Shown: one piece after another, positions 32,598 to 59,365 of the stretch
How the letters are laid out: each line of letters opens with the position of its first letter
Position numbering within the stretch: the first letter of the stretch is position 1
Assembly (NCBI RefSeq): GCF_025148125.1
Contig: NZ_CP102267.1
Coordinates: 2,614,501-2,678,500 of the forward strand
Source of the DNA: Blautia wexlerae DSM 19850
GTDB taxonomy: Bacteria > Bacillota > Clostridia > Lachnospirales > Lachnospiraceae
Reading direction: 5' to 3'
Length of the DNA stretch: 64,000 bases
Notes under the pieces: model-generated
The model's database searches: none
Told to the model about the DNA's origin: nothing
What the model saw: the letters and a program-made list of their open reading frames with translations, nothing else
Made by a program: the position numbers and the translations under genes

Positions 32598-34688
32598 TTG
32601 ATTTTAGTTATCGCAGAAAAGCCCAGTGTGGCACAGACAATCGCTGCCGTACTTGGGGCAAAGGAAAAGAAAGACGGATTTCTCATAGGAAGCGGCTATA
32701 TCGTTTCTTGGTGCGTGGGACATTTGGTAGGGCTTTCCGAAGCTGCCGCCTACGGGGAGCAGTATAAAAAGTGGAGCTATGACAGCTTACCGATTTTGCC
32801 GCAGGAATGGAAGTACACCGTTGCTTCTGACAAGGAAAAGCAATTCAAGACCTTAAAGGAACTTATGCACCGGGCAGACGTTTCCGAAGTCGTCAATGCC
32901 TGCGACGCGGGGCGCGAGGGAGAACTCATTTTCCGTTTTGTCTACGAAGTTGCCGGGTGCAGGAAGCCCACGCGCCGCTTGTGGATTTCCTCAATGGAAG
33001 AAGCTGCTATCAAAGAGGGCTTTTCTCATCTGAAGAACGGCGAAGCATACGACGCGCTCTTTGCTTCCGCATTATGCAGGGCAAAGGCTGACTGGCTAAT
33101 CGGTATCAACGCCACCCGTCTTTTTTCTGTCCTTTACAACCATACCTTGAATGTGGGACGCGTACAGACCCCGACCTTAAAAATGCTTGTTGACCGGGAC
33201 GCGGCGATTACCACGTTCAAGAAAGAAAAATACTATCATGTGCGCCTGTCCTTATCCGGCGCGGAAGCTGCAAGCGAAAAACTGTCTGACCGTTCCGAAG
33301 CTGACAGGCTGAAAGCTGCTTGTGAAGCGTCAAAAGCAGTCTGTACTTCCCTTGTGAAAGAGAAAAAGACCGCAGCCCCGCCGAAGCTCTTTGACCTTAC
33401 TTCTTTGCAGAGGGAAGCAAACCGCCTGTTCGGATATACCGCAAAGCAGACCCTTGACCTTGCACAAGCCCTGTATGAAAAGCGTTTGCTTACTTATCCG
33501 AGAACCGACAGCGCATTTCTGACCGACGACATGGGCGACACAGCGGCGGGCATTATCAAGCTGCTTTGTGGGAAATTTTCTTTTATGGCGGGCATGGACT
33601 TTGCGCCGGAGCTTGCAAAAGTGCTGAACAGTAAAAAGGTATCAGACCACCATGCCATTATCCCGACTATGGAGCTTGCAAAGACCGACCTTGCCGCGCT
33701 GCCGGAAAGCGAAAGGAATATCCTTACCCTTGCCGGGGCGCGTCTGCTCATGGCGACCGCCGCAGTACATACCTTTGAAGCGGTTACGGCTACATTTGAA
33801 TGTGCCGGACAGTCCTTTACCGCAAAGGGAAAAACAGTGCTGTACGACGGTTGGAAAGAGATTGACCGCCGTTACCGGGCAGCCTTAAAGAACAAGCCCG
33901 AAACGGACGACGCAGACAGCGACACAGAAAAGACCCTGCCGCCATTTACCGAGGGACAGACCTTTGAAAATCCGGCGGCAACGGTAACGGAACATGACAC
34001 AACACCGCCAAAACCTCACAACGAAGCGTCGCTGCTCTCTGCTATGGAGCACGCCGGAAGCGAGGACACCGACCCGGACGCAGAACGCAAAGGGCTTGGA
34101 ACTCCCGCCACCCGCGCCGCCGTCATTGAAAAACTGGTAAAGGGCGGTTTTGTGGAGCGAAAAGGCAAGCAGCTACTTCCCACAAAGGACGGTATCAACC
34201 TTGTGTGCGTCCTGCCGGACACCTTGACAAGCCCGCAGCTTACCGCAGAATGGGAAAACAATCTGACACAGATTGCAAAAGGCAAGGCAGACCCCGCCGC
34301 ATTTATGGAGGGTATTGAGAATATGGCGCGGGAACTGGTAAAGACGTACCCGTTTCTTTCTGATGATAAAGCGCAGATGTTCAAGCCGGAACGGGAAGCG
34401 TTGGGAAGCTGCCCCCGCTGCGGTTCTCCTGTCTATGAGGGCAAGAAGAATTACTATTGCAGCAATAAGGAATGTATCTTTACCATGTGGAAAAATGACC
34501 GTTTCTTTGAAGAACGAAAAGTAACCTTTACCCCGAAGATTGCCGCCGCGCTCTTACAATCCGGCAAGGTAAATGTGAAAAAGCTCTATTCCCCAAAGAC
34601 TGGCAAGACCTACGACGGAACTATCGTATTGGCTGATACGGGCGGGAAATATGTCAACTACCGGGTGGAGCTTCCGAAGAAAAAATAA
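32598..34688 (+). CDS. topB: DNA topoisomerase III (type IA)
   Basis: 696 residues. The Toprim domain opens ILVIAEKPSVAQTIAAVLGA with acidic residues in NACDAGREGELIFRFV. The active-site tyrosine is Y300 in RLLTYPRTDSAFL. A C-terminal zinc finger is present (CPRCGSPVYEGKKNYYC). ICEs of this superfamily encode such enzymes, perhaps to resolve transfer or replication intermediates. The start is TTG at 32598 with AAAGGAGG upstream. The gene is complete. Confidence 0.95.
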   Translation: MILVIAEKPSVAQTIAAVLGAKEKKDGFLIGSGYIVSWCVGHLVGLSEAAAYGEQYKKWSYDSLPILPQEWKYTVASDKEKQFKTLKELMHRADVSEVVNACDAGREGELIFRFVYEVAGCRKPTRRLWISSMEEAAIKEGFSHLKNGEAYDALFASALCRAKADWLIGINATRLFSVLYNHTLNVGRVQTPTLKMLVDRDAAITTFKKEKYYHVRLSLSGAEAASEKLSDRSEADRLKAACEASKAVCTSLVKEKKTAAPPKLFDLTSLQREANRLFGYTAKQTLDLAQALYEKRLLTYPRTDSAFLTDDMGDTAAGIIKLLCGKFSFMAGMDFAPELAKVLNSKKVSDHHAIIPTMELAKTDLAALPESERNILTLAGARLLMATAAVHTFEAVTATFECAGQSFTAKGKTVLYDGWKEIDRRYRAALKNKPETDDADSDTEKTLPPFTEGQTFENPAATVTEHDTTPPKPHNEASLLSAMEHAGSEDTDPDAERKGLGTPATRAAVIEKLVKGGFVERKGKQLLPTKDGINLVCVLPDTLTSPQLTAEWENNLTQIAKGKADPAAFMEGIENMARELVKTYPFLSDDKAQMFKPEREALGSCPRCGSPVYEGKKNYYCSNKECIFTMWKNDRFFEERKVTFTPKIAAALLQSGKVNVKKLYSPKTGKTYDGTIVLADTGGKYVNYRVELPKKK

Positions 34689-34693
34689 CTGAA

Positions 34694-34793
34694 TAGCAAG
34701 CATAGGAAAAGAGTACCCTTTTCCGTAAAATCCCTGCTTTCTCTACCGAGAACGGCGGGGATTTTTGCTTGTTGGGAAGTTTCCCAAACCCTC
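34694..34793 (+). repeat. 100-nt oriT-like repeat, copy 1
   Basis: Block 1 (34694-34727, 34 bases) includes GGAAAAG / CTTTTCC; after 37 bases, block 2 (34765-34793) includes TTGGGAAGTTTCCCAAAC. The same two blocks at the same 37-base spacing occur in inverted orientation at 42773-42872, just upstream of mobC. Block 1 is identical in both; block 2 differs by one base. It lies between topB and the large anti-restriction gene. Confidence 0.85.
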
Positions 34794-34905
34794 TGAAATC
34801 TTGAAAAAATATCTAAACTCTTTGGCAAAAACGCGGGCGCGGGGTACTGAATGATGAAACTGGAAAGCGCAGCGTCCGCGCTGCCTTTGGGAAAGGAGGT
34901 TACAC

Positions 34906-37900
34906 ATGGCAAATTTACGGGACACCGTAAAAGACTATCAAGAAGAATTAAGGGACGGTATCGCTTGGGTGGCGTTTTGGAAAACGGGACGTTCTTGGAA
35001 CGCGGAATATTTCCACCTTGAAATGGGCGATATTCTCTACCCGGAGGACAGAAGCCGCATGGAAGAAATCAAACAGGCTGACCCTGCCGCCGTTGTGGTA
35101 AACGGCTATTATTCCGGCTATCTTGGCGAGGACAGGAACCTTGACGAACTGACCGCCGGGGTGCGCCGCCACTACGAAAACGGATATAGCAATATCGGGG
35201 AATTTATCGAAGCCCACGACGACAGGCTGCCGCCGGAGCTTATCGAGGAAGCAAGAGCCGCCGCCCACGCTGCGGGGCTGCCTTTTTCTGAAAAAGCCTA
35301 CCGGGGCGGCGAAGAACCCGACCCCTATCTATTTGACGGGAGCATGAGCATGGAGGACTACGAGCTTATGCACCGCATGATTGAGAAAGAAAGGAGTGAG
35401 CGCATGGAAGAAACGATTTTAAGCGGGTATCTTTCTAATCTTGGAAAGTACACCGAGGGCAGACCTGCGGGCGAATGGGTATCATTCCCCACGACTGCTG
35501 AACATTTGAAAGAAGTCTTTGACCGTATCGGGATAGACGGCAAAAACTACGGGGAGCTGCACATCACAGAATATCAGTCCTCTATTCCGGGACTGGCAGG
35601 GAAATTGACCGAGCTTGAAAGCCTTGACGAACTGAACTATTTGGGCGAGCTTTTGAAAATGCAGTTTGACGACGACCGGGAAAAATTTGCTGCGGCTATC
35701 ACATACGGCGACCATACAAGGGACTTGCAGGACATTATAAACCTTGCACAAAATCTTGACTGTTACTGGATTTATCCGTCCGTAAAAACCGAGGAAGATT
35801 ACGGGCATTATCTGATTGAAGAACTGGACGAGTTGGAGCTGCCGGAAGAAGCAAAAAACTATTTTCTCTATGAGGAATACGGGCGGGACGCTGCTATCAA
35901 TGACGGGGGCAGATTTACCGAGCAGGGATATATCTACAACAACCGCAACACCTTTACACAGTGGTATGACGGACGGGACGTGCCGGAGGAATATCGGGTA
36001 ACACCGCAGCCGCCAGTACAGGAAAAGGAACAGGCAGACATTGACGCTGCCGCAGCCATACCGACCACTGCCACAGAGCAGCCCCCGGTTCTCCCGATTA
36101 TCCTATCTTCCGAAAAGCCCGCCAACAAAATGAAAGAGATTACCGACCGACTGGAACAGGGCATTTTGGGGATTTATGAAAGCGACCGTTACGCCGACTA
36201 TCTGCGTACTATGTCTAAATTCCATGATTACAGCCTAAACAATACAATCCTTATCGCCATGCAGGGCGGCAACCTTGTAAAAGGCTATAAACAATGGGAA
36301 AAGGAATTTGACCGCCATGTAAAGCCGGGGGAAAAAGCTATCAAGATAATTGCGCCCGCGCCCTTTACCGTTAAGAAACAGGTGGAAAAAATCGACCCGG
36401 ACACGCAAAAGCCTGTTTTCGATAAGAACGGGAAAGCCGTTACCGAGGAAAAGGAAATCCAAATCCCCGCCTTTCGTGTGGTATCTGTTTTTGACGTGTC
36501 GCAGACCGAGGGTAAGGAGTTGCCCGACCTTGGGATAAAGGAGCTTACGGGCGACGTGGAACAGTATCAGGATTTTTTCGCTGCCCTTGAAAAAACTTCC
36601 CCCTTTGCTATGGGATTTGAAGCACTAAGCGGCAGTATAAAAGGACGCTGCAATTATGAGGAAAAGTGTATTCTCATCAACGAGGGCATGGACGAATTGC
36701 AGAATATCAAGACCGCTATCCATGAAATTGCCCATGCGACACTCCATGACATAGACAAAGACGCGCCGGAACGTCCCGACCGTCGCACCCGCGAGGTACA
36801 GGCAGAAAGCGTCGCCTATGCCGTTTGCCAACACTACGGGCTTGATACGTCGGACTATTCCTTTGGATATATCGCCGGGTGGAGCAGCGGAAAAGAACTT
36901 GCAGAACTGAAAGGCTCTCTTGAAACAATCCGCAGCACCGCCGCAAGTCTGATTGATACCATAGACGGACATTTTGCAGAAATCCAAAAGGCACAGGATA
37001 AGGAACAGACCACCGAACAGGCACAGACCCCACAGGAAGCTACCATACAGCCCGAAGCAGAAGCAGCCGCGCCGGAGCTTCCCGAAGAAACAGCCCCGGT
37101 ACAGGAAAAAGAAGCACAGACCGAGCCGGAAGCTGATACAGGCGCAAGCAGCGAAGCACCACAGCCGGAACAAGCTGCACCCGCCGCACCTTATTACACA
37201 ATCAACGAAGCTGCCGCCAAACGTGCAAAGGACGCAAACAGTTTTTCCGATTATAAGCAAGGCAGCGCGACGGCTGAATACAGGCACTATGTAGATGAAG
37301 CCGTACAGCTTGCAGAAAGGCAGAAACAGCGGGTAGACCCGATGTACCATGAGAAAATCGACAGCCTGCTTGACACCTACGCCCGGAAACTGGCGGCGAA
37401 CATGAACAAAGGCTATGAGATTGACGCGCGTGTTCCCTCTATCCTCATTGCGGGCGGCTCTAACTTCCCCACAAGGAAGAAAGAAAAGCAGAACGCAGCC
37501 CGCGACAGCAATTACCGGGAATGGCAGGACATACAAGGACTTCTTGATAAAATCCGCAGTACCGGCATGGGCGGTATCAGTGCAGACGACCCGCAGGCAG
37601 TACAGAAGTTAGAAAAGAAACTGGAAAGCCTTGAAAAATCACAGGAAACCATGAAAGCCGTAAACGCCTATTACCGTAAGCACAAGACCCTTGACGGCTG
37701 CCCGCATTTGTTGCCGGAACAGCTTGAAAAATTAAAAGCGGACATGGCGAGCAGTTGGCATTTGGGGGACAAGCCCTTTGCGACTTGGGCGTTATCCAAC
37801 AACAGCGCGGAAATCCGGCGCGTGAAAGACCGTATCAAATCCCTTTCACAGCAAAAAGAAATCGGTTTTGTGGGTTGGGAATTCGACGGCGGCAAGGTGG

Positions 37901-38778
37901 AAGCAAACACCGAAGCGAACCGTCTGCAAATCTTCTTTGAGGATAAGCCGGACGAAGCTACGCGGGAAGCCTTAAAAAGCAACGGCTTCCGTTGGTCGCC
38001 AAAAGCCGGGGCATGGCAGCGGCAGCTTACCAGTAACGCCTATTATGCGGCTGATTATGTCAAGGCGATTGCACCTCTTACCGGGGAAAAGCCTACCGAG
38101 TTACAGCGGGCGCATATCCGGGCGCAAAAGGTAGCTGCACAGGAACAATTCGCACAAGGGCAGCCGGAGCAGGAAGCCCCACAGGATAAAGACACCTTTT
38201 CCATTTATCAGATAAAAGGCGGGGACGAAACAAGGGACTTGCGTTTTGAGCCTTACGACCGTCTGATTGCCGCCGGACACCGGGTAGACGCGAAAAACTA
38301 TACACTTGTCTATTCCGCACCTCTTACGCCGGGGACTTCCCTTGAAGATATTTACACCCGCTTTAATATCGACCACCCGAAAGATTTTAAGGGACACAGC
38401 CTTTCCGTTTCCGACGTGGTGGTACTTCATCAGAACGGACAGGACACCGCCCACTATGTAGACAGCTTCGGTTATAAGGACGTGCCGGAGTTTTTGCAGC
38501 CGGAAAATTATCTGAAAGCTGCCGAACAGACCACCGAGCAGAATTACAACATGATTGACGGGCAGATAAACAACACCCCGACCGCTACGGAACTGGAAGA
38601 AAAAGCAAAAGCCGGAGGACAGATTTCCCTTGCAGAATACGCCGAAGCCCTCAAAGCAGAAAAGAAACAGGCAGAGCCGGAGAAAAAGTCCTCTATCCGG
38701 GCGCAGCTTAAAGCAGCGAAAGAACAGGCACCGAAGAAACAGGCAAGACAGAAAACACAGGATTTGGAAAGGAGCTGA
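34906..38778 (+). CDS. 1290-residue multidomain anti-restriction protein (ArdA + ArdC-type + YodL)
   Basis: An N-terminal domain of unknown type (AFWKTGRSWNAEYFHLEMGD, residues 20-130) is followed by an ArdA-like domain (about 165-360: GYLSNLGKYTEGRPAGEW, DRIGIDGKNYGELHITEY, YFLYEEYGRDAAIN). Next comes an ArdC-type DNA-binding region (about 410-545: DYLRTMSKFHDYSLNNTILI, PAPFTVKKQV) with the metallopeptidase motif HEIAHATLHD (H606, E607, H610). A Glu/Gln/Pro-rich linker leads to a helical region, and a YodL domain (about 1085-1200: YDRLIAAGHRVDAKNYTLVY) sits near the end. ArdA mimics DNA and blocks type I restriction enzymes; ArdC protects incoming single strands. The fusion would protect the ICE on entering a new host. 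Domain borders are by eye. Confidence 0.8.
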   Translation: MANLRDTVKDYQEELRDGIAWVAFWKTGRSWNAEYFHLEMGDILYPEDRSRMEEIKQADPAAVVVNGYYSGYLGEDRNLDELTAGVRRHYENGYSNIGEFIEAHDDRLPPELIEEARAAAHAAGLPFSEKAYRGGEEPDPYLFDGSMSMEDYELMHRMIEKERSERMEETILSGYLSNLGKYTEGRPAGEWVSFPTTAEHLKEVFDRIGIDGKNYGELHITEYQSSIPGLAGKLTELESLDELNYLGELLKMQFDDDREKFAAAITYGDHTRDLQDIINLAQNLDCYWIYPSVKTEEDYGHYLIEELDELELPEEAKNYFLYEEYGRDAAINDGGRFTEQGYIYNNRNTFTQWYDGRDVPEEYRVTPQPPVQEKEQADIDAAAAIPTTATEQPPVLPIILSSEKPANKMKEITDRLEQGILGIYESDRYADYLRTMSKFHDYSLNNTILIAMQGGNLVKGYKQWEKEFDRHVKPGEKAIKIIAPAPFTVKKQVEKIDPDTQKPVFDKNGKAVTEEKEIQIPAFRVVSVFDVSQTEGKELPDLGIKELTGDVEQYQDFFAALEKTSPFAMGFEALSGSIKGRCNYEEKCILINEGMDELQNIKTAIHEIAHATLHDIDKDAPERPDRRTREVQAESVAYAVCQHYGLDTSDYSFGYIAGWSSGKELAELKGSLETIRSTAASLIDTIDGHFAEIQKAQDKEQTTEQAQTPQEATIQPEAEAAAPELPEETAPVQEKEAQTEPEADTGASSEAPQPEQAAPAAPYYTINEAAAKRAKDANSFSDYKQGSATAEYRHYVDEAVQLAERQKQRVDPMYHEKIDSLLDTYARKLAANMNKGYEIDARVPSILIAGGSNFPTRKKEKQNAARDSNYREWQDIQGLLDKIRSTGMGGISADDPQAVQKLEKKLESLEKSQETMKAVNAYYRKHKTLDGCPHLLPEQLEKLKADMASSWHLGDKPFATWALSNNSAEIRRVKDRIKSLSQQKEIGFVGWEFDGGKVEANTEANRLQIFFEDKPDEATREALKSNGFRWSPKAGAWQRQLTSNAYYAADYVKAIAPLTGEKPTELQRAHIRAQKVAAQEQFAQGQPEQEAPQDKDTFSIYQIKGGDETRDLRFEPYDRLIAAGHRVDAKNYTLVYSAPLTPGTSLEDIYTRFNIDHPKDFKGHSLSVSDVVVLHQNGQDTAHYVDSFGYKDVPEFLQPENYLKAAEQTTEQNYNMIDGQINNTPTATELEEKAKAGGQISLAEYAEALKAEKKQAEPEKKSSIRAQLKAAKEQAPKKQARQKTQDLERS

Positions 38779-38781
38779 CCT

Positions 38782-39726
38782 ATGAAGTTACAAAAATTTG
38801 AAAATGTGGACGTTATTGCTTCCCTTGAAGCCATAATGAAACAGAACACCGCTTTTTATCAGAGCGATTTTGACATAGACAAACAGATTTTGCGGAAAGC
38901 GGCGGTAAGCCTTATCCCGGAGGACAAACGGCTTTTGTGGTTTTCCCGCCCGTCCGGGACGTGCTGCTTCCGGGAACGGGACGTTTTTCTAAAGGACACA
39001 AGGCAGCATAATACATGGCGGTTTTACGGGGAACAGACCCGCGATACTATCCTTGCCTATGCGGTGGAACTGACAGGCACAGAGCAGGAAAAAATCAAGG
39101 GCAATCTTTATGAACTGGATTATTTGCAGCATTTCCGGGAAGTAATCGAAAAATCAATCCCTGCCGACAACTACACGCTGATTTATGAGCATGGGGAGCT
39201 GACAAAGCCTGCCGGACAATATTTTGACGGGGACACTGACCCGCAACTTGGAAAGTTTATACGTTTTGAAGCACAGCCAAACGACCCGGAAGCCTTAAAA
39301 AGCCTTTTGAGGGAACAGCAGAAAAAACGAACACCGCATACGCAGAGGGATTTTCAGTTACATATCGCCGCCCTGCATGATAGACAGATTGAAACAGAAG
39401 CCCGCCGGATTGTGGAAAATGTAAAAGGGCTTGGAGAACCGGACAGCCCCGAAAAGACCCATTGTGCGGTAGAACTTTCTCCCTACTTTGTTCCACTGGC
39501 AACGGATAAGGATATGGAACGGCTGCTTTCCATGCTCCCTTACAAAAGCCTTTCCTTATCTACGTTGGAGGGCAGGCATGGAGTTTATGCGCTGATAGAT
39601 AAAAGCGAGAGGAATAAAGAGATGAAACAGTCCCCTCCCTCTGTCCGGGCGCAGTTACAAACAGAAAAATCCCCAAAAGTCCCGAAAAAGACAGCAAAAT
39701 CAAAACATCACGAATTGGAGGTATGA
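38782..39726 (+). CDS. conserved ICE protein of unknown function
   Basis: 314 residues, no signal peptide or membrane helix. It begins KLQKFENVDVIASLEAIMKQ and has a globular middle (LLWFSRPSGTCCFRERDVFL, WRFYGEQTRDTILAYAVEL, YTLIYEHGELTKPAGQYF). The C-terminal 40 residues are basic and Ser/Lys/Pro-rich. It starts three bases after the anti-restriction gene, so they are co-expressed. I recognise the placement from Tn1549-like elements but no domain. Confidence 0.7.
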   Translation: MKLQKFENVDVIASLEAIMKQNTAFYQSDFDIDKQILRKAAVSLIPEDKRLLWFSRPSGTCCFRERDVFLKDTRQHNTWRFYGEQTRDTILAYAVELTGTEQEKIKGNLYELDYLQHFREVIEKSIPADNYTLIYEHGELTKPAGQYFDGDTDPQLGKFIRFEAQPNDPEALKSLLREQQKKRTPHTQRDFQLHIAALHDRQIETEARRIVENVKGLGEPDSPEKTHCAVELSPYFVPLATDKDMERLLSMLPYKSLSLSTLEGRHGVYALIDKSERNKEMKQSPPSVRAQLQTEKSPKVPKKTAKSKHHELEV

Positions 39727-39728
39727 GC

Positions 39729-39935
39729 ATGATTAGACTGACCGTTGAAGAAATGAACCTGTTGAGTATTTACCATGAGGGAAGCAAAGCACAGCTTATG
39801 GAAAATATGACGGCTGCGCTGCCGTTCATGGACGAGGATATGCGCCCCTTTGCAGAACGCACCTTACAGAAAATTTCCCCGCTAACAGAAAACGAGTATG
39901 CGGAGCTTGCCATTTTCGCCGCTGATGAAGTATGA
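39729..39935 (+). CDS. transposon-transfer assisting family protein (TTRAP-like)
   Basis: 68 residues, acidic: IRLTVEEMNLLSIYHEGSKA then NMTAALPFMDEDMRPFAERT and PLTENEYAELAIF. This matches the small putative transfer-assisting proteins of Tn1549-like elements. The ATG at 39729 is seven bases after GGAGG; one at 39723 is too close. ATGA overlap with the next gene. Confidence 0.75.
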   Translation: MIRLTVEEMNLLSIYHEGSKAQLMENMTAALPFMDEDMRPFAERTLQKISPLTENEYAELAIFAADEV

Positions 39936-40297
39936 CCGGGGGTAAGCGGCTTACGCCGCCACAGAGCCGAAAAGTCAACAGCCTTGTAAAAAAGGAGTGC
40001 TGCAACTGCGAGCGCGGACACTGTATCTTACTGGACGACGGGGAGGAATGTGTCTGCCCGCAGCTCATTTCCTGTTCGCTTTTATGCAAGTGGTTTCAAA
40101 TTGCCGTACTTCCTCTTGATAAGCTACTGTATGCAGAGCTTTTCAAGACAGAGGACAAAAAGCGTTGTACCGAGTGCGGCACGTTCTTTGTATCAAAATC
40201 GAACAGCGTCAAATACTGCCCGGACTGCCGGAAGCGGATTACCCGCAGACAGGCAGCCGAGCGCATGAGGAAACGGCGTGCGGCGGTTACGCGATAA
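39932..40297 (+). CDS. cysteine-rich VLP-type small protein
   Basis: 121 residues. N-terminal cysteines in KKECCNCERGHCILLDDGEE and CVCPQLISCSLLCKWF match the cysteine-rich VLP domain; a C-terminal zinc-ribbon-like CTECGTFFVSKSNSVKYCPDC is followed by a basic tail. Coupled by ATGA to the gene before it. Probably a metal-binding nucleic-acid protein. The last 12 bases lie within repeat copy 2. Confidence 0.75.
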   Translation: MTGGKRLTPPQSRKVNSLVKKECCNCERGHCILLDDGEECVCPQLISCSLLCKWFQIAVLPLDKLLYAELFKTEDKKRCTECGTFFVSKSNSVKYCPDCRKRITRRQAAERMRKRRAAVTR

Positions 40298-40397
40298 GGG
40301 CAAAAAAAGCCTTGATTTACAGGGCATAAATGACGTGAAACTGGCATAGGCGATACAGAATACCTTTTCCCTTAAAATGGGGGTTCTACTGCGTAAC
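40286..40397 (+). repeat. 112-nt direct repeat, copy 2
   Basis: Same length as 21462-21573, sharing TAAGGGCAAA, AGCCTTGATTTA, ATACCTTTTCCCT and TTCTACTGCGTAAC at matching positions, with divergent stretches between. Here no gene follows in the same direction; a strong terminator and a minus-strand operon follow instead. Confidence 0.75.
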
Positions 40398-40416
40398 ATT
40401 TTAAAATCAGTACCTA

Positions 40417-40470
40417 TAAAAGAACAGGGTGCGGGAGGTCATTACTGGCTTCCTGCGCCCTGTTCTTTTT
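40417..40470. terminator. bidirectional terminator between converging ICE operons
   Basis: AAAAGAACAGGGTGCGGGAG pairs with CTTCCTGCGCCCTGTTCTTT with mostly G-U exceptions; A-run and T-run flank the 20-bp stem. It separates the plus-strand transfer operon from the minus-strand mobilisation operon. Confidence 0.85.
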
Positions 40471-40831
40471 GTGTCTGACTGTCTTTATCCTGCATTTCCG
40501 GCTTCGGCTGTAATTCTTTTTCTATCCGGTTCCGGTAATGGGTTTTCCTGCGGTAAAAATATTTTGTTACTTCCTGTTCCGGCAGCCATATCCCCGCAGC
40601 TTCTATCCGTTCCATAACAGCGGCAACGATTTCCCGGTTGTTGTACTTATGCGGCTCCTGTCCCTTTTCTATCCAAAGACGGCGGTATTCCTCATAAAGC
40701 CATGTACTGATAGTTTCTTTCTGCCGTTGCTTCAAATGCCGGAACTGCTTATCTGTCCGCAGCAGCTTCCCGTCTACCTTTTTATGATTTTTTGTCCCGA
40801 TTTCTTTTTTCCTCTCTTTCCATTTCTTCAA
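40442..40831 (-). CDS. small basic ICE protein of unknown function
   Basis: 129 residues, rich in Lys, Arg and Glu (KKWKERKKEIGTKNHKKVDG, then STWLYEEYRRLWIEKGQEPH, IWLPEQEVTKYFYRRKTHYR). The middle looks helical and could bind DNA. It overlaps the upstream helix-turn-helix gene by 50 bases, which makes the exact start uncertain. No domain recognised. Its end lies in the bidirectional terminator. Confidence 0.55.
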   Translation of the reverse strand: MKKWKERKKEIGTKNHKKVDGKLLRTDKQFRHLKQRQKETISTWLYEEYRRLWIEKGQEPHKYNNREIVAAVMERIEAAGIWLPEQEVTKYFYRRKTHYRNRIEKELQPKPEMQDKDSQTQKEQGAGSQ

Positions 40832-41051
40832 GGGGAAACTGGGGGAGGGCTTCTATCAGCTTCATTGTGATATACTGGCGCATATCTTCATCAATTTCCA
40901 GTTTGAATGTTCCGTCCGGCTGACGTTTCTTTACAGTTGCCTGCCTGTCGATTTCGTCCTTGTAGCACATAAGCACCTTTTCCACCGCCCATGTTTCTCC
41001 GGTAACGGCGGCGCTTATGGTTTCATAATCGGGTATCGTTTGGTCTGCCAT
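40782..41051 (-). CDS. Orf8-type helix-turn-helix (HTH_16) regulator
   Basis: 89 residues: IPDYETISAAVTGETWAVEK, VLMCYKDEIDRQATVKKRQ, then IDEDMRQYITMKLIEALPQF. This is the small sigma-like helix-turn-helix type found beside conjugation genes (Tn916 Orf8). A relative lies at 49501-49761 in this ICE and another at 61361-61603. Transcribed away from the relaxase operon region with a 60-base gap. Confidence 0.75.
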   Translation of the reverse strand: MADQTIPDYETISAAVTGETWAVEKVLMCYKDEIDRQATVKKRQPDGTFKLEIDEDMRQYITMKLIEALPQFPLEEMEREEKRNRDKKS

Positions 41052-41111
41052 GTTTTCACGCTCCTGTCTATATTGGAATACCTTTATCCTACCACGCTTT
41101 TATAGATATTT

Positions 41112-42461
41112 CTACTGTAAGCGTTCGGTTTCCCTGCCCCGTTCCGGTTCTTTTTCCAGTCTTAAAATACTGTCTATGTTCTGTTTGATAACGTCGTATT
41201 CCTTGACCTGTTTTTTCAGCTTGCCATAATCAGTGTAAAGGGCTTCTTTCTGCGCTTGGAGCTTCCCGTATTCTTCCTGCATGGCGGCAAGATTGGGGAG
41301 CTTGGTAACGCCCGCCGCTTTCAATGCCTTTGCCACCGCTTCATGGAGTATCAGACTGCTTTCCTGCTTTGCCCGGTATGTGTCCTTATCCTTTGCCCTG
41401 CGGTATGCTTCATAGACGGTTTTTGTTTTTTGGTAGGTGGTAACGTGCTTCATCAGCACCGCCATGTCTGCAAGACGTTTCTCCACGCTCTTTAATGCGT
41501 CTGCTGTCTTTTCATTTTCCGCATTTATTTCTTCAATCCGGCTGACTAAATCCGCGTACTGCTCAATCTTGTGTTCTGTCAAGAAATTCATAGTTTTTGC
41601 AGCCAGTTTCAGATTATGGATTTTCGCCCACTGTTCATAGCCCCGGCTCTCTTGTGCCTTGATACTACTTTCAATGTCGATAAGCAGCGATACGCCGCGC
41701 TGCTCTTTGGGAGCTTTCGCTGCCTTTGTGTGCTTGCCTGCAATCCGTTCTTTGATTGCTTCCTCTGTATAATCTGCACCGAGGGTTTTTATGCGGGTAA
41801 AGCGTTCCTGTCCGGGAGCGCGGCAGGAGATATATTTTCCCGGCTTTATCTCATAGCCCGCCGCCTGTAACCGCTGCAATAATTCTTCAAAACTTGCTAC
41901 TTGGGGGATAAGTGTATCAACGGCAATTTTTAGCTTGCCTTTCCAACTTGTTCCCGTCTTTTCCGCTTGATATTCTGCATAGCTTTTTCCCTTACTGCCT
42001 TTACCCGGAATGACAACGGACAGCCCGTTTTCCCTGCACAGCTTATCACTTATGTTCCGTATGCCGTAGTAACTGCGCTTATTGGAATTGTACTTATGGT
42101 AGTCAACAAAGTTGACCGCACAAAAAATGATATGGTTATGGATATGCCCTTTGTCTATGTGGGTAGTCAAGACGTATTCATGCTGTCCCTTTGTTACCGC
42201 GTCGGCAAGCTGTTTTCCGATTGTGTGGGCTTTCTCACAGTCCACCTCTCCCGGTTCAAACGATTGTATCAGATGAAAGGCTAAGTTGTTCCCTTTCTGC
42301 CGAGCCTGCGACAAAGTATATTCAAACTCAATATCTGCCGTTTCATAGCTGCACCCAAAGGAGGACACAAGCGTTTTCCCGTCTGTCTTATCCGGGTTTT
42401 GGATATAATCAAGGGCTTTGCTCAACGTGCTTTTAATAGGCTTAATCTTTGTAACCGCCAT
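41112..42461 (-). CDS. MOB_P-type relaxase
   Basis: 449 residues. Nicks oriT and leads the strand into the recipient. The three-histidine metal site is HIDKGHIHNHIIF (H101, H106, H108, H110 region), with the N-terminal domain opening KIKPIKSTLSKALDYIQNPD. The helical C-terminal half (about 250-440) is coiled-coil rich. It overlaps mobC by 40 bases, and the oriT-like repeat lies just upstream of mobC, the classical order oriT-mobC-relaxase. Complete and probably functional. Confidence 0.92.
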   Translation of the reverse strand: MAVTKIKPIKSTLSKALDYIQNPDKTDGKTLVSSFGCSYETADIEFEYTLSQARQKGNNLAFHLIQSFEPGEVDCEKAHTIGKQLADAVTKGQHEYVLTTHIDKGHIHNHIIFCAVNFVDYHKYNSNKRSYYGIRNISDKLCRENGLSVVIPGKGSKGKSYAEYQAEKTGTSWKGKLKIAVDTLIPQVASFEELLQRLQAAGYEIKPGKYISCRAPGQERFTRIKTLGADYTEEAIKERIAGKHTKAAKAPKEQRGVSLLIDIESSIKAQESRGYEQWAKIHNLKLAAKTMNFLTEHKIEQYADLVSRIEEINAENEKTADALKSVEKRLADMAVLMKHVTTYQKTKTVYEAYRRAKDKDTYRAKQESSLILHEAVAKALKAAGVTKLPNLAAMQEEYGKLQAQKEALYTDYGKLKKQVKEYDVIKQNIDSILRLEKEPERGRETERLQ

Positions 42462-42751
42462 ATCTCCGCAAGCACCCCCTTTATTTCCTCTATGTCCTCT
42501 TGGTAGACGCTGCCTGTCGCATTGACACGCTTTGCAATCTGATTGACGTTGACCCCGATTTTCTGTATCTCCGCTGTCATGGCTTTTATGTCGCTATGGT
42601 CTGTCTGAATGATATACCCGTCAATGGCAATCTTGCGAAGATACGCCGCCATATTTTGGGTAGGGACGAGCTTCATTTTCTGTTCAATCAATGCCCGTTC
42701 TTCCTCTGTTACATAGAATTTGATTTGTACTTTTCTTTTGCGTCCGTTCAT
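42422..42751 (-). CDS. mobC: MobC-type relaxosome accessory protein
   Basis: 109 residues. VQIKFYVTEEERALIEQKMK is a ribbon-helix-helix-type start; NMAAYLRKIAIDGYI and IQKIGVNVNQIAKRVNATG are hallmark MobC stretches. The ATG at 42751 follows AAAGGAA; a longer frame to 42817 runs into the oriT-like repeat and was rejected. It likely bends oriT DNA for the relaxase encoded behind it. Confidence 0.88.
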   Translation of the reverse strand: MNGRKRKVQIKFYVTEEERALIEQKMKLVPTQNMAAYLRKIAIDGYIIQTDHSDIKAMTAEIQKIGVNVNQIAKRVNATGSVYQEDIEEIKGVLAEIWRLQRLSLLKAR

Positions 42752-42772
42752 GCAATCGTTCCTTTCCATTCC

Positions 42773-42872
42773 GAGGGTTTGGGACACTTCCCAACAAGCA
42801 ATTTTTAACCGACGCACCGCAGGGCGGGAGGGCGAAAATACGGAAAAGGGTACTCTTTTCCTATGCTTGCTA
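42773..42872 (-). repeat. oriT: 100-nt oriT-like repeat, copy 2 (probable origin of transfer)
   Basis: Inverted copy of 34694-34793: a 34-base identical block (42839-42872) and a 29-base block (42773-42801) spaced by 37 bases. GGGACACTTCCC replaces the perfect GGGAAACTTCCC palindrome. It lies 22 bases upstream of mobC, where oriT is expected in MOB_P systems. Confidence 0.7.
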
Positions 42873-50397: not shown

Positions 50398-50476
50398 TAG
50401 TGAAATCGAGCCTTGAATGTGGTACAATGTAGTCAAGCATATCAAGGCTCTTTCCATTATGGAAAGGAGCATAACG

Positions 50477-51670
50477 ATGTCGGAAAAAAGACGGGATAAT
50501 AAAAATCGTATTCTCCGCACCGGAGAGAGCCAGAGAAAAGACGGGAGATATGCCTACAAATATATAGATACCTTTGGAAAACCGCAGTTTGTGTATTCTT
50601 GGAAGTTAGTACCTACGGACAAAACCCCGGCAGGAAAACGCGACGATATAGCGTTGAGGGAAAAAGAGAAAGAAATCCAAAAAGACCTTGACGACGGTAT
50701 CGACCATATCGGAAAGAAAATGACGGTCTGCCAACTCTACGCAAAGCAGATACGCCACCGGGCAAATGTGCGGCATGGTACAAAGCAGGGGCGAAAACAG
50801 CTCATGCGGATTTTGCAGGAGGATAAACTTGGAGCCTGCCGGATTGAAAATGTGAAGCTCTCCGACGCAAAGGAATGGGCATTACGCATGAAAGAAAAAG
50901 GTTACGGCTTCAAGACTATCAACAACCACAAGCGTTCCTTAAAGGCTGCTTTTTACACAGCCATACAGGACGATTGTATTCGTAAAAATCCATTTGACTT
51001 CCAGTTGAACACAGTCCTTGAAGATGATACGGAACCAAAGGAACCTCTATCCCCTACGCAGGAAGCGGCTTTTCTGTCCTTTGTGCAGCATGATAAAGTC
51101 TATCAGAAATACTACGACGAGATTATCATACTGTTAGGGACAGGGCTTCGCATTTCGGAACTCTGCGGACTGACGGAAGCTGACATTGACTTAGACAAAC
51201 AGCTTATCAATGTAGACCACCAACTTTTGAAGATTGCAGACGTGGGTTACTATGTGGAAACGCCTAAGACGAAAAGCGGCAATCGGGTTATTCCTATGAG
51301 TGAAAAAGTGTTGGAAGCATTTCAACGGGTGCTGAACAAACGGAAATATGCACAGCCTGTTATTTTAGAGGGCTACACAAAGTTTCTGTTTCTTAACCGG
51401 AACGGCTTGCCAAAAGTGGCAGTCAACTATGAAAGTATGTTCCGGGGGCTTGTAAGGAAATACACAAAAACGCAAAAGGTAGCATTGCCAAAGGTAATGA
51501 CACCGCACACCTTACGCCACACATTCTGCACCACGTTAGCAAATGCAGGAATGAACCCAAAGGCATTGCAGTACATCATGGGACATTCCAACATCAATAT
51601 GACGCTGAACTATTACGCGCATACGACTTCCGAAACGTCGATAACAGAAATGAAGCGGCTGATTGCATAA
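50477..51670 (+). CDS. int: tyrosine integrase, Tn916 family
   Basis: 397 residues. The catalytic set is complete: R225 in TGLRISELCGLTEADID, H344 and R347 in HTLRHTFCTTLANAG, H370 in MGHSNINM and nucleophile Y379 (the number used for Tn916 Int) in TLNYYAHT. The N-terminus has the arm-binding domain (ENRILRTGESQ-like, GRYAYKYIDTFGKPQFVYSW). The ATG at 50477 with AAAGGAG was chosen. The right ICE end lies within 45 bases of its stop. Confidence 0.95.
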   Translation: MSEKRRDNKNRILRTGESQRKDGRYAYKYIDTFGKPQFVYSWKLVPTDKTPAGKRDDIALREKEKEIQKDLDDGIDHIGKKMTVCQLYAKQIRHRANVRHGTKQGRKQLMRILQEDKLGACRIENVKLSDAKEWALRMKEKGYGFKTINNHKRSLKAAFYTAIQDDCIRKNPFDFQLNTVLEDDTEPKEPLSPTQEAAFLSFVQHDKVYQKYYDEIIILLGTGLRISELCGLTEADIDLDKQLINVDHQLLKIADVGYYVETPKTKSGNRVIPMSEKVLEAFQRVLNKRKYAQPVILEGYTKFLFLNRNGLPKVAVNYESMFRGLVRKYTKTQKVALPKVMTPHTLRHTFCTTLANAGMNPKALQYIMGHSNINMTLNYYAHTTSETSITEMKRLIA

Positions 51671-57858: not shown

Positions 57859-58962
57859 TTATACTGCCAGCATCCTTCTTGCCTCTTCACGGATATTGAT
57901 CGCTGCATTTCGATCTCTGTCCATCTCATTTCCACACGTGCAGCGGTATACTCTTTCAGATAATCCCAGCTCTTTTTTTATCTTTCCGCATTTACTGCAT
58001 TTTTTGCTTGAAGGGAAAAAGCGGTCTGTCTTTACTAATTTCTTTCCCTTCCAGGAAAGCTTATAATCCAGCATATTCCGGAACATCCCGTATCCATTAT
58101 CCTGTACACTTTTTCCAAAATGCAGGCCCCGGCTCATTGCTTTCATATCAATATCTTCTACCGCGACTATATCGTACTGGTCTGTGATCCTGCGGCTCAG
58201 TTTATGCAGATAATCTTTTCTCTGGTTTCGTATTTTTTCATGGCACCTGGCAACTTTCTTTTTCTGCCGCACATAATTGCGGCTTTCTTTTACACATCTC
58301 GACAGTTTACGCTGCTCTCTCGCCAGCCTTTTTTCATTTCTTCTGAAGAATCCTGCTTTTTCAAGCTCAATCTCTTATGAAAACACTGCCATCCCCTGCA
58401 TCGCATAATCAATCCCCAGTATTTTGGCATTGCTGTAATCTTTATCTGCTGCTTGGTTTTCGCAGCTGTATCCTTCATACAGCAGACTTGCAAAATACTT
58501 TCCGGACGGCTCCATACTGACTGTCACTGATTTCAGGCAGCAGTTTTCTGCAGGCTCCCTGCGTTTTTTCATGGAGATCCATTTTAATTTTGGAAGCCGG
58601 ATCCGCTTATCTTCTACCAGAATATTTCCGTTGACTACATTTGTTGTGTAACTGTTTTGGGAGTGATGTTTTGACTTGAAACGTGGAAATCCAACCTTGG
58701 GATCACGGAAAAAGTTCTTATATGCTTTCTCCAGATGAAGCTGAACATTTGCCAGTGCCAGCGAATCTACTTCTCTCAGAAATGGATACTCCTTTTTATA
58801 CATGGCTGGTGTATTTTTTAACAGCTTTTTCGTCTTTTTATACTCCCGGATCTTGTCATTAAGCATCTGGTTATACAGAAAACGGCAGCAGCCAAATGTT
58901 TTTCCAAGGAGTATCTTCTGTTCTTCTGTTGGATAGATCCGGAAACGATATGCTATGTTCAA
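57859..58962 (-). pseudogene. tnpB: TnpB with an in-frame stop
   Basis: 368 codons aligning end to end with the intact TnpB of element A, with one stop (TAA, 58377-58375) right after LGIDYAMQGMAVFS. No gap is needed at the stop. Downstream parts are otherwise intact: VAVEDIDMKAM, CSKCGKIKKELGLSERVYRC, NEMDRDRNAAINI. The RuvC aspartate and glutamate would be on different peptides, so it is dead unless the stop is read through. The TTG start at 58962 follows GGGAGAG. Confidence 0.85.
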
Positions 58963-59365
58963 TTCTTTTTCTCTCCCTGGGTTTCGATGTATTGACGGAT
59001 TACTTCAACTGGTGCCCCTCCTGCCGTCAAAAGGCAGAAACTCTGGCTCCAGAATGCTTCTTTCCAAAGTTCTCCCGGATTTCCGGATACTCTTTTTTCA
59101 GCAGCCTGCTGCTGGCGCTTTTATATGCATTGATAAATTTACTGAGTCCCGTTTTAGGCTGTGCACGAAACATTACATGCACATGGTCAATATCATGATT
59201 CCATTCCTCCAAAACAATTCCATATCGGGGTGCAATATATTCCCATATTTCTTTTGCTCTTTCTGAAATTGGGTCATTGATAACTTTTCTTCGATATTTT
59301 ACCACCATGATCAGATGATAATACATCAAATATACTGAATGTGCATTGTGATCTATTTTTTCCAT
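58959..59365 (-). pseudogene. tnpA: TnpA with a -1 frameshift before the catalytic tyrosine
   Basis: EKIDHNAHSVYLMYYHLIMV, HUH motif in WNHDIDHVHVMFR intact, but after KEYPEIREN one base is missing compared with element A (AAACT versus AACT) and the frame ends at SGARVSAF. The tyrosine (VIRQYIETQGEK) lies in the next frame. Inactive. Useful for showing what element A lost. Confidence 0.85.

Follow-up and report, generated by a model that had tools for sequence, protein, structure and literature searches.

A second, inward-facing oriT-like copy in Tn1549-type integrative and conjugative elements

Introduction

Conjugative elements of the Tn1549 type are common in gut Bacillota. The integrative and conjugative element (ICE) studied here lies in a stretch of 64,000 nucleotides (nt) of the Blautia wexlerae DSM 19850 chromosome (NZ_CP102267.1, positions 2,614,501 to 2,678,500 of the forward strand), hereafter called the window. 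It carries two copies of a sequence resembling an origin of transfer (oriT). One of them, copy B, is the predicted primary oriT, with mobC directly downstream and the relaxase gene behind it. The other, copy A, has the opposite orientation and sits between topB and an ardA-type gene. The question raised by this locus is what the copy next to topB does. We favour, with a probability of roughly 0.55, the reading that the element's predicted oriT (copy B) has a second, inward-facing counterpart in copy A, which is likely bound and nicked on the opposite strand by the same MobC-relaxase complex. Positions given without a locus number refer to the window; other loci are cited by their L numbers.

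Results

Two facing copies in the window

Copy A occupies positions 34694-34793 of the plus strand and copy B positions 42773-42872 of the minus strand; the two are inverted and face each other across about 8 kb. Each is built in the same order, with a nick-like core (TAGCAAGCATA), an inverted repeat, a spacer and a second conserved block. In copy A, block 1 (34694-34727, plus strand) comprises the core and the inverted repeat GGAAAAG/CTTTTCC, the spacer (34728-34764, plus strand) holds a strong hairpin (AAATCCCTGC...GGCGGGGATTT), and block 2 (34765-34793, plus strand) consists of TTGCTTG followed by the inverted repeat TTGGGAA/TTCCCAA. The corresponding parts of copy B, all on the minus strand, are block 1 at 42839-42872, a spacer at 42802-42838 of a class that is absent from A positions, and block 2 at 42773-42801. 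In both window copies block 2 reads TTGCTTGTTGGGAAGT(T/G)TCCCAAACCC and carries its own inverted repeat. A preliminary description of this DNA had reported two copies of a block pair with 37-base spacing and unrelated spacers, which direct comparison confirmed: block 1 agrees at 34/34 positions and block 2 at 28/29, and the 37-nt spacers share scattered matches only. The same two arms were recovered by an independent repeat search of the window.

In RP4 and R64 the nick lies about 8 nt beyond the repeat, with the consensus YATCCTG↓Y (the arrow marks the nick). The strand opposite block 1 reads repeat-TATGCTTG↓CTA, and by analogy nicks are predicted at 42869/42870 of the plus strand for copy B and at 34697/34696 of the minus strand for copy A. 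When folded as single-stranded DNA, CAAGCA of block 1 pairs with TGCTTG of block 2 into a closed multi-arm fold on either strand (z-scores of the two strands, -6.4 and -6.0 for copy A, -3.8 and -4.2 for copy B). Since the start of block 2, TGCTTG, complements the nick-proximal CAAGCA of block 1, each oriT is able to close on itself.

The pair is kept in related elements

Relatives were sampled by their relaxase. The best 80 of 221 relaxase loci on genome contigs were used, and loci from whole genomes and plasmid records were added (among them sets of 40 and 25, each chosen from a larger number of matches), so that 152 loci were classed in all. Both copies were present in 51 of the 80. Among the other 29, the topB 3' end was outside the stretch in 26, two (L032 and L063) have copy A on a stretch that starts past the place of copy B, and L068 has a truncated copy A. 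Presence of copy A was counted over loci with the topB 3' end in view, graded by relaxase identity to the window relaxase. Copy A follows topB in 61 of 62 loci at 78-100% identity, the exception being L068, and in 16/16 at 57-78%, that is in 77/78 at 57% identity or above. Copy B went unseen by the script in 5/89 loci of the 78-100% band, partly because the stretch begins after B. On a tree of 101 relaxases, from which L107 (split relaxase frame), rows below 380 amino acids and rows below 45% identity were left out, the presence of copy A requires 3 changes.

Altogether 78 elements with both copies were found, including that of the window and some near-duplicates, with the copies 2.8-11.7 kb apart (median 7.5 kb). 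The core AGCAAGCA is intact in copy A of 77/78 and in copy B of 78/78, counts that are conditional on detection as the copy finder tolerates one core mismatch. Two copies of an oriT sequence thus stand on one element, copy B being taken as oriT from its position and family. In a blastn search with the region upstream of the relaxase, for which no motif was supplied, the inverted copy was recovered in L092, L093, L094 and L107. On the window chromosome itself there are three facing pairs and a single solitary copy; these pairs, together with those in relatives, rule out an accident of the window genome.

Orientation is fixed. In 78/78 elements the copies face inward, A always being the one next to topB and B the one next to mobC, and A and B positions have no spacer string in common among the 78 elements. 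The spacers of A and B resemble each other in two elements, L107 and L132. TGCTTG was found in copy A of 75/77 elements and in copy B of 60/78. The A spacer forms a perfect stem of 6-13 pairs in all 77 elements with a readable spacer, and the B spacer forms one of 5-8 pairs in 65/78 and none in 13. The spacer, which the preliminary description had regarded as free, is therefore no free filler in copy A, where the stem has at least 6 pairs throughout. A terminator scan reported no terminator-like site in the copy A spacer.

The pair is also found on the vanB element of the Enterococcus faecalis plasmid pMG2200 (NC_011642.1), which we take to be Tn1549-like. Copy B lies at L132:13592 (+) and copy A at L132:21623 (-), 11 nt past the last topB codon. 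This element resembles that of the window in the order topB - ardA-type gene - relaxase - mobC, in its relaxase (64% identical) and in the facing pair; it differs in its repeat type (GGGAGTGT...), in a B loop two bases shorter than that of A, and in spacers that are partly alike. Both its A region and its B region have matches in 14 Enterococcus plasmid records (at least 99%, two places per record), the layout having been viewed in pMG2200 alone. Pairs occur in Monoglobus (L134) and Vescimonas (L133) records as well. In a Streptococcus agalactiae record with a relaxase of 39% identity (L135) the copy finder gave no copies.

The two copies change in step

Block 1 repeat types vary by clade and agree within an element. 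The types are AAGAGTACCCTT, GCGGGTACCCAC, AGGGGTACCCT and GTGTGTACCCAC, with CAGCAAACG...CGTTTGC in L092-L094 and GTGTATTAACAC in L107, where A has a loop longer by two bases. In 67/78 elements the stem-loop is identical between A and B. Because the added loci partly repeat strains of the first 80 (L158/L081 and L159/L072, for instance, have contigs of equal length), thinned figures were used. Below 97% relaxase identity (n = 36), block 1 of A and of B lie a mean of 0.81 edits apart; after permutation the mean is 5.76, and none of 10,000 permutations went below 3.97. In 30/36 elements no other B is closer to A than the element's own. Below 92% identity (n = 18) the distance is 1.33 against 6.80. 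Block 2 shows the same, weaker trend (1.14 against 2.76 edits, n = 35; own B nearest in 21/35). All these figures are inflated by relatedness. L064 and L037 illustrate the pattern: their A spacers are 2 edits apart, and their block 1 sequences are 5 edits apart in both A and B. The switch between repeat types T1 and T2 occurred 3 times on the relaxase tree, and A and B agree in type in 42/42 elements.

L072 is a mosaic at copy B (L072:3504), its flank being like one clade and its spacer and mobC like another, which places a recombination point in or beside oriT. In L015 each of the two copies (L015:9590 and L015:16529) carries, next to the predicted nick and at a matching point, the same IS110-type insertion sequence. 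The two elements are 1706 nt long, are 99.94% identical and encode a DEDD_Tnp_IS110 transposase; since sequence-guided site choice explains them, they are not taken as evidence of nicking.

Pattern scans independent of the relaxase

A search of 348 genomes in the family with the block 1 pattern yielded 51 exact matches, spread over 20 genomes, and the reversed pattern, used as a control, gave 0 among the matches listed. Thirty of the 51 form 15 same-contig pairs within 12 kb, and 15/15 of these face inward. For 3 of the 21 unpaired matches (own genome 3,796,097, L179 and L180) the partner is present and was missed by the exact pattern because its loop is one base shorter. A further 13 of the 21 are solitary within the stretches fetched (L011, L167-L178), some of them on short contigs. 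On viral contigs, 6 stretches of 4 contigs matched: L162 has both facing copies in a single stretch, L161 has the topB-side copy only, and in L163/L165 and L164/L166 the topB-side copy is in one stretch and the mobC-side copy in the other.

The solitary copies have features of their own. In L167-L172, L177 and L178 (e.g. L167:5452 and L169:5491) the same oriT occurs with no Tn1549-type relaxase match in the stretch, some of these being short contigs, and 7 of the 8 have a spacer of the AAATCTGCCC..GGACAGATTT type. A gene for a large serine recombinase is located some 300 nt from the copy in L167 and L169, and no relaxase was found there among six more proteins scanned; loci such as these two look like relaxase-less elements copying the oriT. 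The solitary copies at L011:9198 (own genome 3371165) and L175:5418 (same genus) have a 15-nt hairpin spacer and likewise no match to the Tn1549-type relaxase. Elsewhere in the window's own genome, a distant relaxase gene (36%) is followed closely by an oriT-like copy that faces it (L121:4011).

Gene neighbours and element type

The constant left neighbour of copy A is topB (32598-34688, plus strand), encoding a protein of the topoisomerase 3 type; 5 bases separate its stop codon from the copy. The usual right neighbour is a gene for an LPD15-ArdA-ArdC-YodL protein (34906-38778, plus strand), its ATG 112 bases from copy A. Copy B is flanked by a helix-turn-helix gene on one side and on the other by mobC (42422-42751, minus strand), encoding a relaxosome protein (NikA-like, E 2.8e-16; MobC, E 9e-10), followed by the relaxase gene (41112-42461, minus strand), whose product has a MobA/VirD2-like nuclease domain (Relaxase, E 1.5e-36). 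These domain matches bear out the preliminary placement of one copy directly upstream of mobC and the relaxase gene. As both copies point inward, they head two convergent operons: A precedes the LPD15-ArdA-ArdC-YodL gene, and B precedes mobC and the relaxase gene.

The gene content is that of a Tn1549-type ICE, with a MOBP-type relaxase, MobC upstream, topB and the ardA-type gene in order, and a Tn916-type tyrosine integrase at 50468-51667 (Integrase_DNA, E 1.4e-34; Phage_integrase, E 1.1e-35). Elsewhere in the window, at 57859-59365, an IS200-type transposase (Y1_Tnp) lies beside an OrfB/IS605-type gene that appears to be split into two pieces.

Discussion

The comparison upholds part of the preliminary interpretation: the copies are oriT-like, and their fixed inward orientation and fixed neighbour genes have been maintained, whether through selection or through concerted change. 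What chiefly favours an origin over a bare operator at copy A is that the nick-like core is kept there, which an operator does not need. The matching repeats of A and B would fit nicking of both copies by one relaxase. We propose that the repeats of A and B are both recognition sites for MobC, which would bring in the relaxase. Cleavage would fall on the plus strand at B, sending the transferred strand out to the right, and on the minus strand at A, sending it out to the left. Nicking at both copies would thus yield complementary transferred strands with opposite exit directions, and from either copy the segment from ardA to the relaxase gene would be the last to enter the recipient. Either strand of the excised circle could then serve for copying and transfer, chromosomal DNA to the left or to the right of an unexcised element could be led out by it, and binding at A may gate the ardA operon too. 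In its fullest form, this would make Tn1549-type ICEs two-headed: the relaxase would nick both facing oriTs on opposite strands, the donor would release complementary strands in opposite directions, each with the anti-restriction-to-relaxase segment trailing, replication would proceed outward from both ends, and an integrated copy could lead out both chromosomal flanks. We offer that extended picture tentatively, as somewhat less than an even chance.

Dual oriTs are already known. ICEclc has two oriTs and one relaxase that uses both, either oriT being able to start transfer (PMC5714925). It is like the window element in having two oriTs on one ICE; it differs in its relaxase family, which is MOBH. 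The pair described here is family-wide, facing and co-varying. More than one oriT is also described for pAD1 and R6K (PMC5587640), which, unlike the window element, are plasmids. A computed survey found multiple putative oriTs on almost two thirds of its oriT-bearing plasmids (PMC7755788); these are largely secondary or non-cognate matches and not a fixed facing pair of one type. Staphylococcal plasmids carry oriT mimics, which are acted on by a relaxase whose gene is elsewhere (PMC8136818 and PMC4652767). Such mimics resemble the solitary copies in L167 and L169, but they stand on other replicons, whereas copy A is on the same element as the relaxase gene. In the literature searched, outside of which lies the main Tn1549 oriT paper (Tsvetkova 2010), no report of a conserved facing second oriT in Tn1549-type ICEs was found. 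The present analysis adds a facing pair whose gene neighbours are fixed, which persists across a large family of MOBP-type ICEs in Bacillota and whose two copies co-vary.

Several points weigh against a second origin at copy A. Below 57% relaxase identity copy A was found in only 2/11 loci and was missing from 9/11; it was seen in 1/6 at 52-57% (L151, which falls in the 59% clade of the tree), in 1/4 at 45-52% (L107) and in 0/1 at 30-45%. The absence of the topB-side copy from most relatives, named in the preliminary description as a ground for doubting its proposal, is thus found among these distant elements and not at 57% identity or above. Block 2 type differs between A and B in L081 and L158, which are the same contig to judge by its length, and L147 and L153 have a degenerate block 2 in A. 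L072 has T1 repeats in both copies and a relaxase that groups with those of T2 elements, so repeat type is not set by the relaxase alone. The T1/T2 agreement comprises only 2-3 independent pairs, with which a sign test cannot reach significance. Gene conversion could also hold the copies alike, and the spacers of L107 and L132 are as conversion or recent duplication would leave them. Finally, replication of ICEclc depended on oriT1 only (PMC6561031).

Among the other explanations, the one that survives best, although we consider it unlikely, is that copy A is an operator and not an origin: binding of MobC or the relaxosome would repress or time the ardA operon, as B would autoregulate mobC-relaxase, and the convergent operons would be co-regulated. 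Each copy is oriented alike towards the operon that it precedes. In loci without A (L095, L098, L148-L150, L152, L103 and L106) the next reading frame begins about 25 nt or less after topB, so that A coincides with an operon break; this counts against a pure origin and keeps the operator alive. MobC of plasmid RA3 autoregulates its own operon by binding to a promoter palindrome (PMC4175270). Against an operator stand, besides the retained core, promoter scans (weak ones) in which neither copy had a sigma-70-like promoter nearby that points to ardA or mobC, and the retention of A in L058 and L059, which have no ardA-type match in the segment, though another reading frame follows A there. The roles of origin and operator are compatible, and copy A, as a second oriT, is possibly also an operator for the ardA operon.

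It is improbable that copy A is instead a replication site, for priming or conversion of the transferred or excised strand, and not a site of transfer initiation. The strong multi-arm fold of A on either strand would suit such a role, and replication of excised ICEs by the relaxase is known (PMC6561031), but priming would need neither the recognition sequence of the oriT nor change in step with it. Still less probable is a duplication relic kept like B by recombination. The similar spacers in L107 and L132, and the absence or truncation of A in some relatives, are consistent with a relic; however, distinct spacers beside like blocks would limit the exchange tracts to about 30 nt, and A persists in nearly all loci at 57% relaxase identity or above. 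Inversion of the 8-kb segment by recombination at the copies, as raised in the preliminary description, is very improbable, for although near-identical inverted repeats of 34 and 29 nt bracket the segment and oriT recombination is known for some relaxases, including NikB of R64 (PMC5714925), 0/78 elements are swapped and the two positions have no spacer string in common, which rules out an inversion switch as the principal explanation, while rare inversion within a culture would escape assemblies.

If both copies work as origins, the picture of ICE transfer as one strand leaving in one direction fails for the Tn1549-type family, of which the pMG2200 relative carries vanB genes, and an unexcised copy could release chromosomal DNA from either flank. 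Should copy A be an operator instead, it would tie the anti-restriction genes to relaxosome assembly. Either way, the core, the repeat, the orientation and the place after topB form a testable sequence rule for annotating Tn1549-type elements, and the same rule helps to spot relaxase-less elements that copy the oriT signal.
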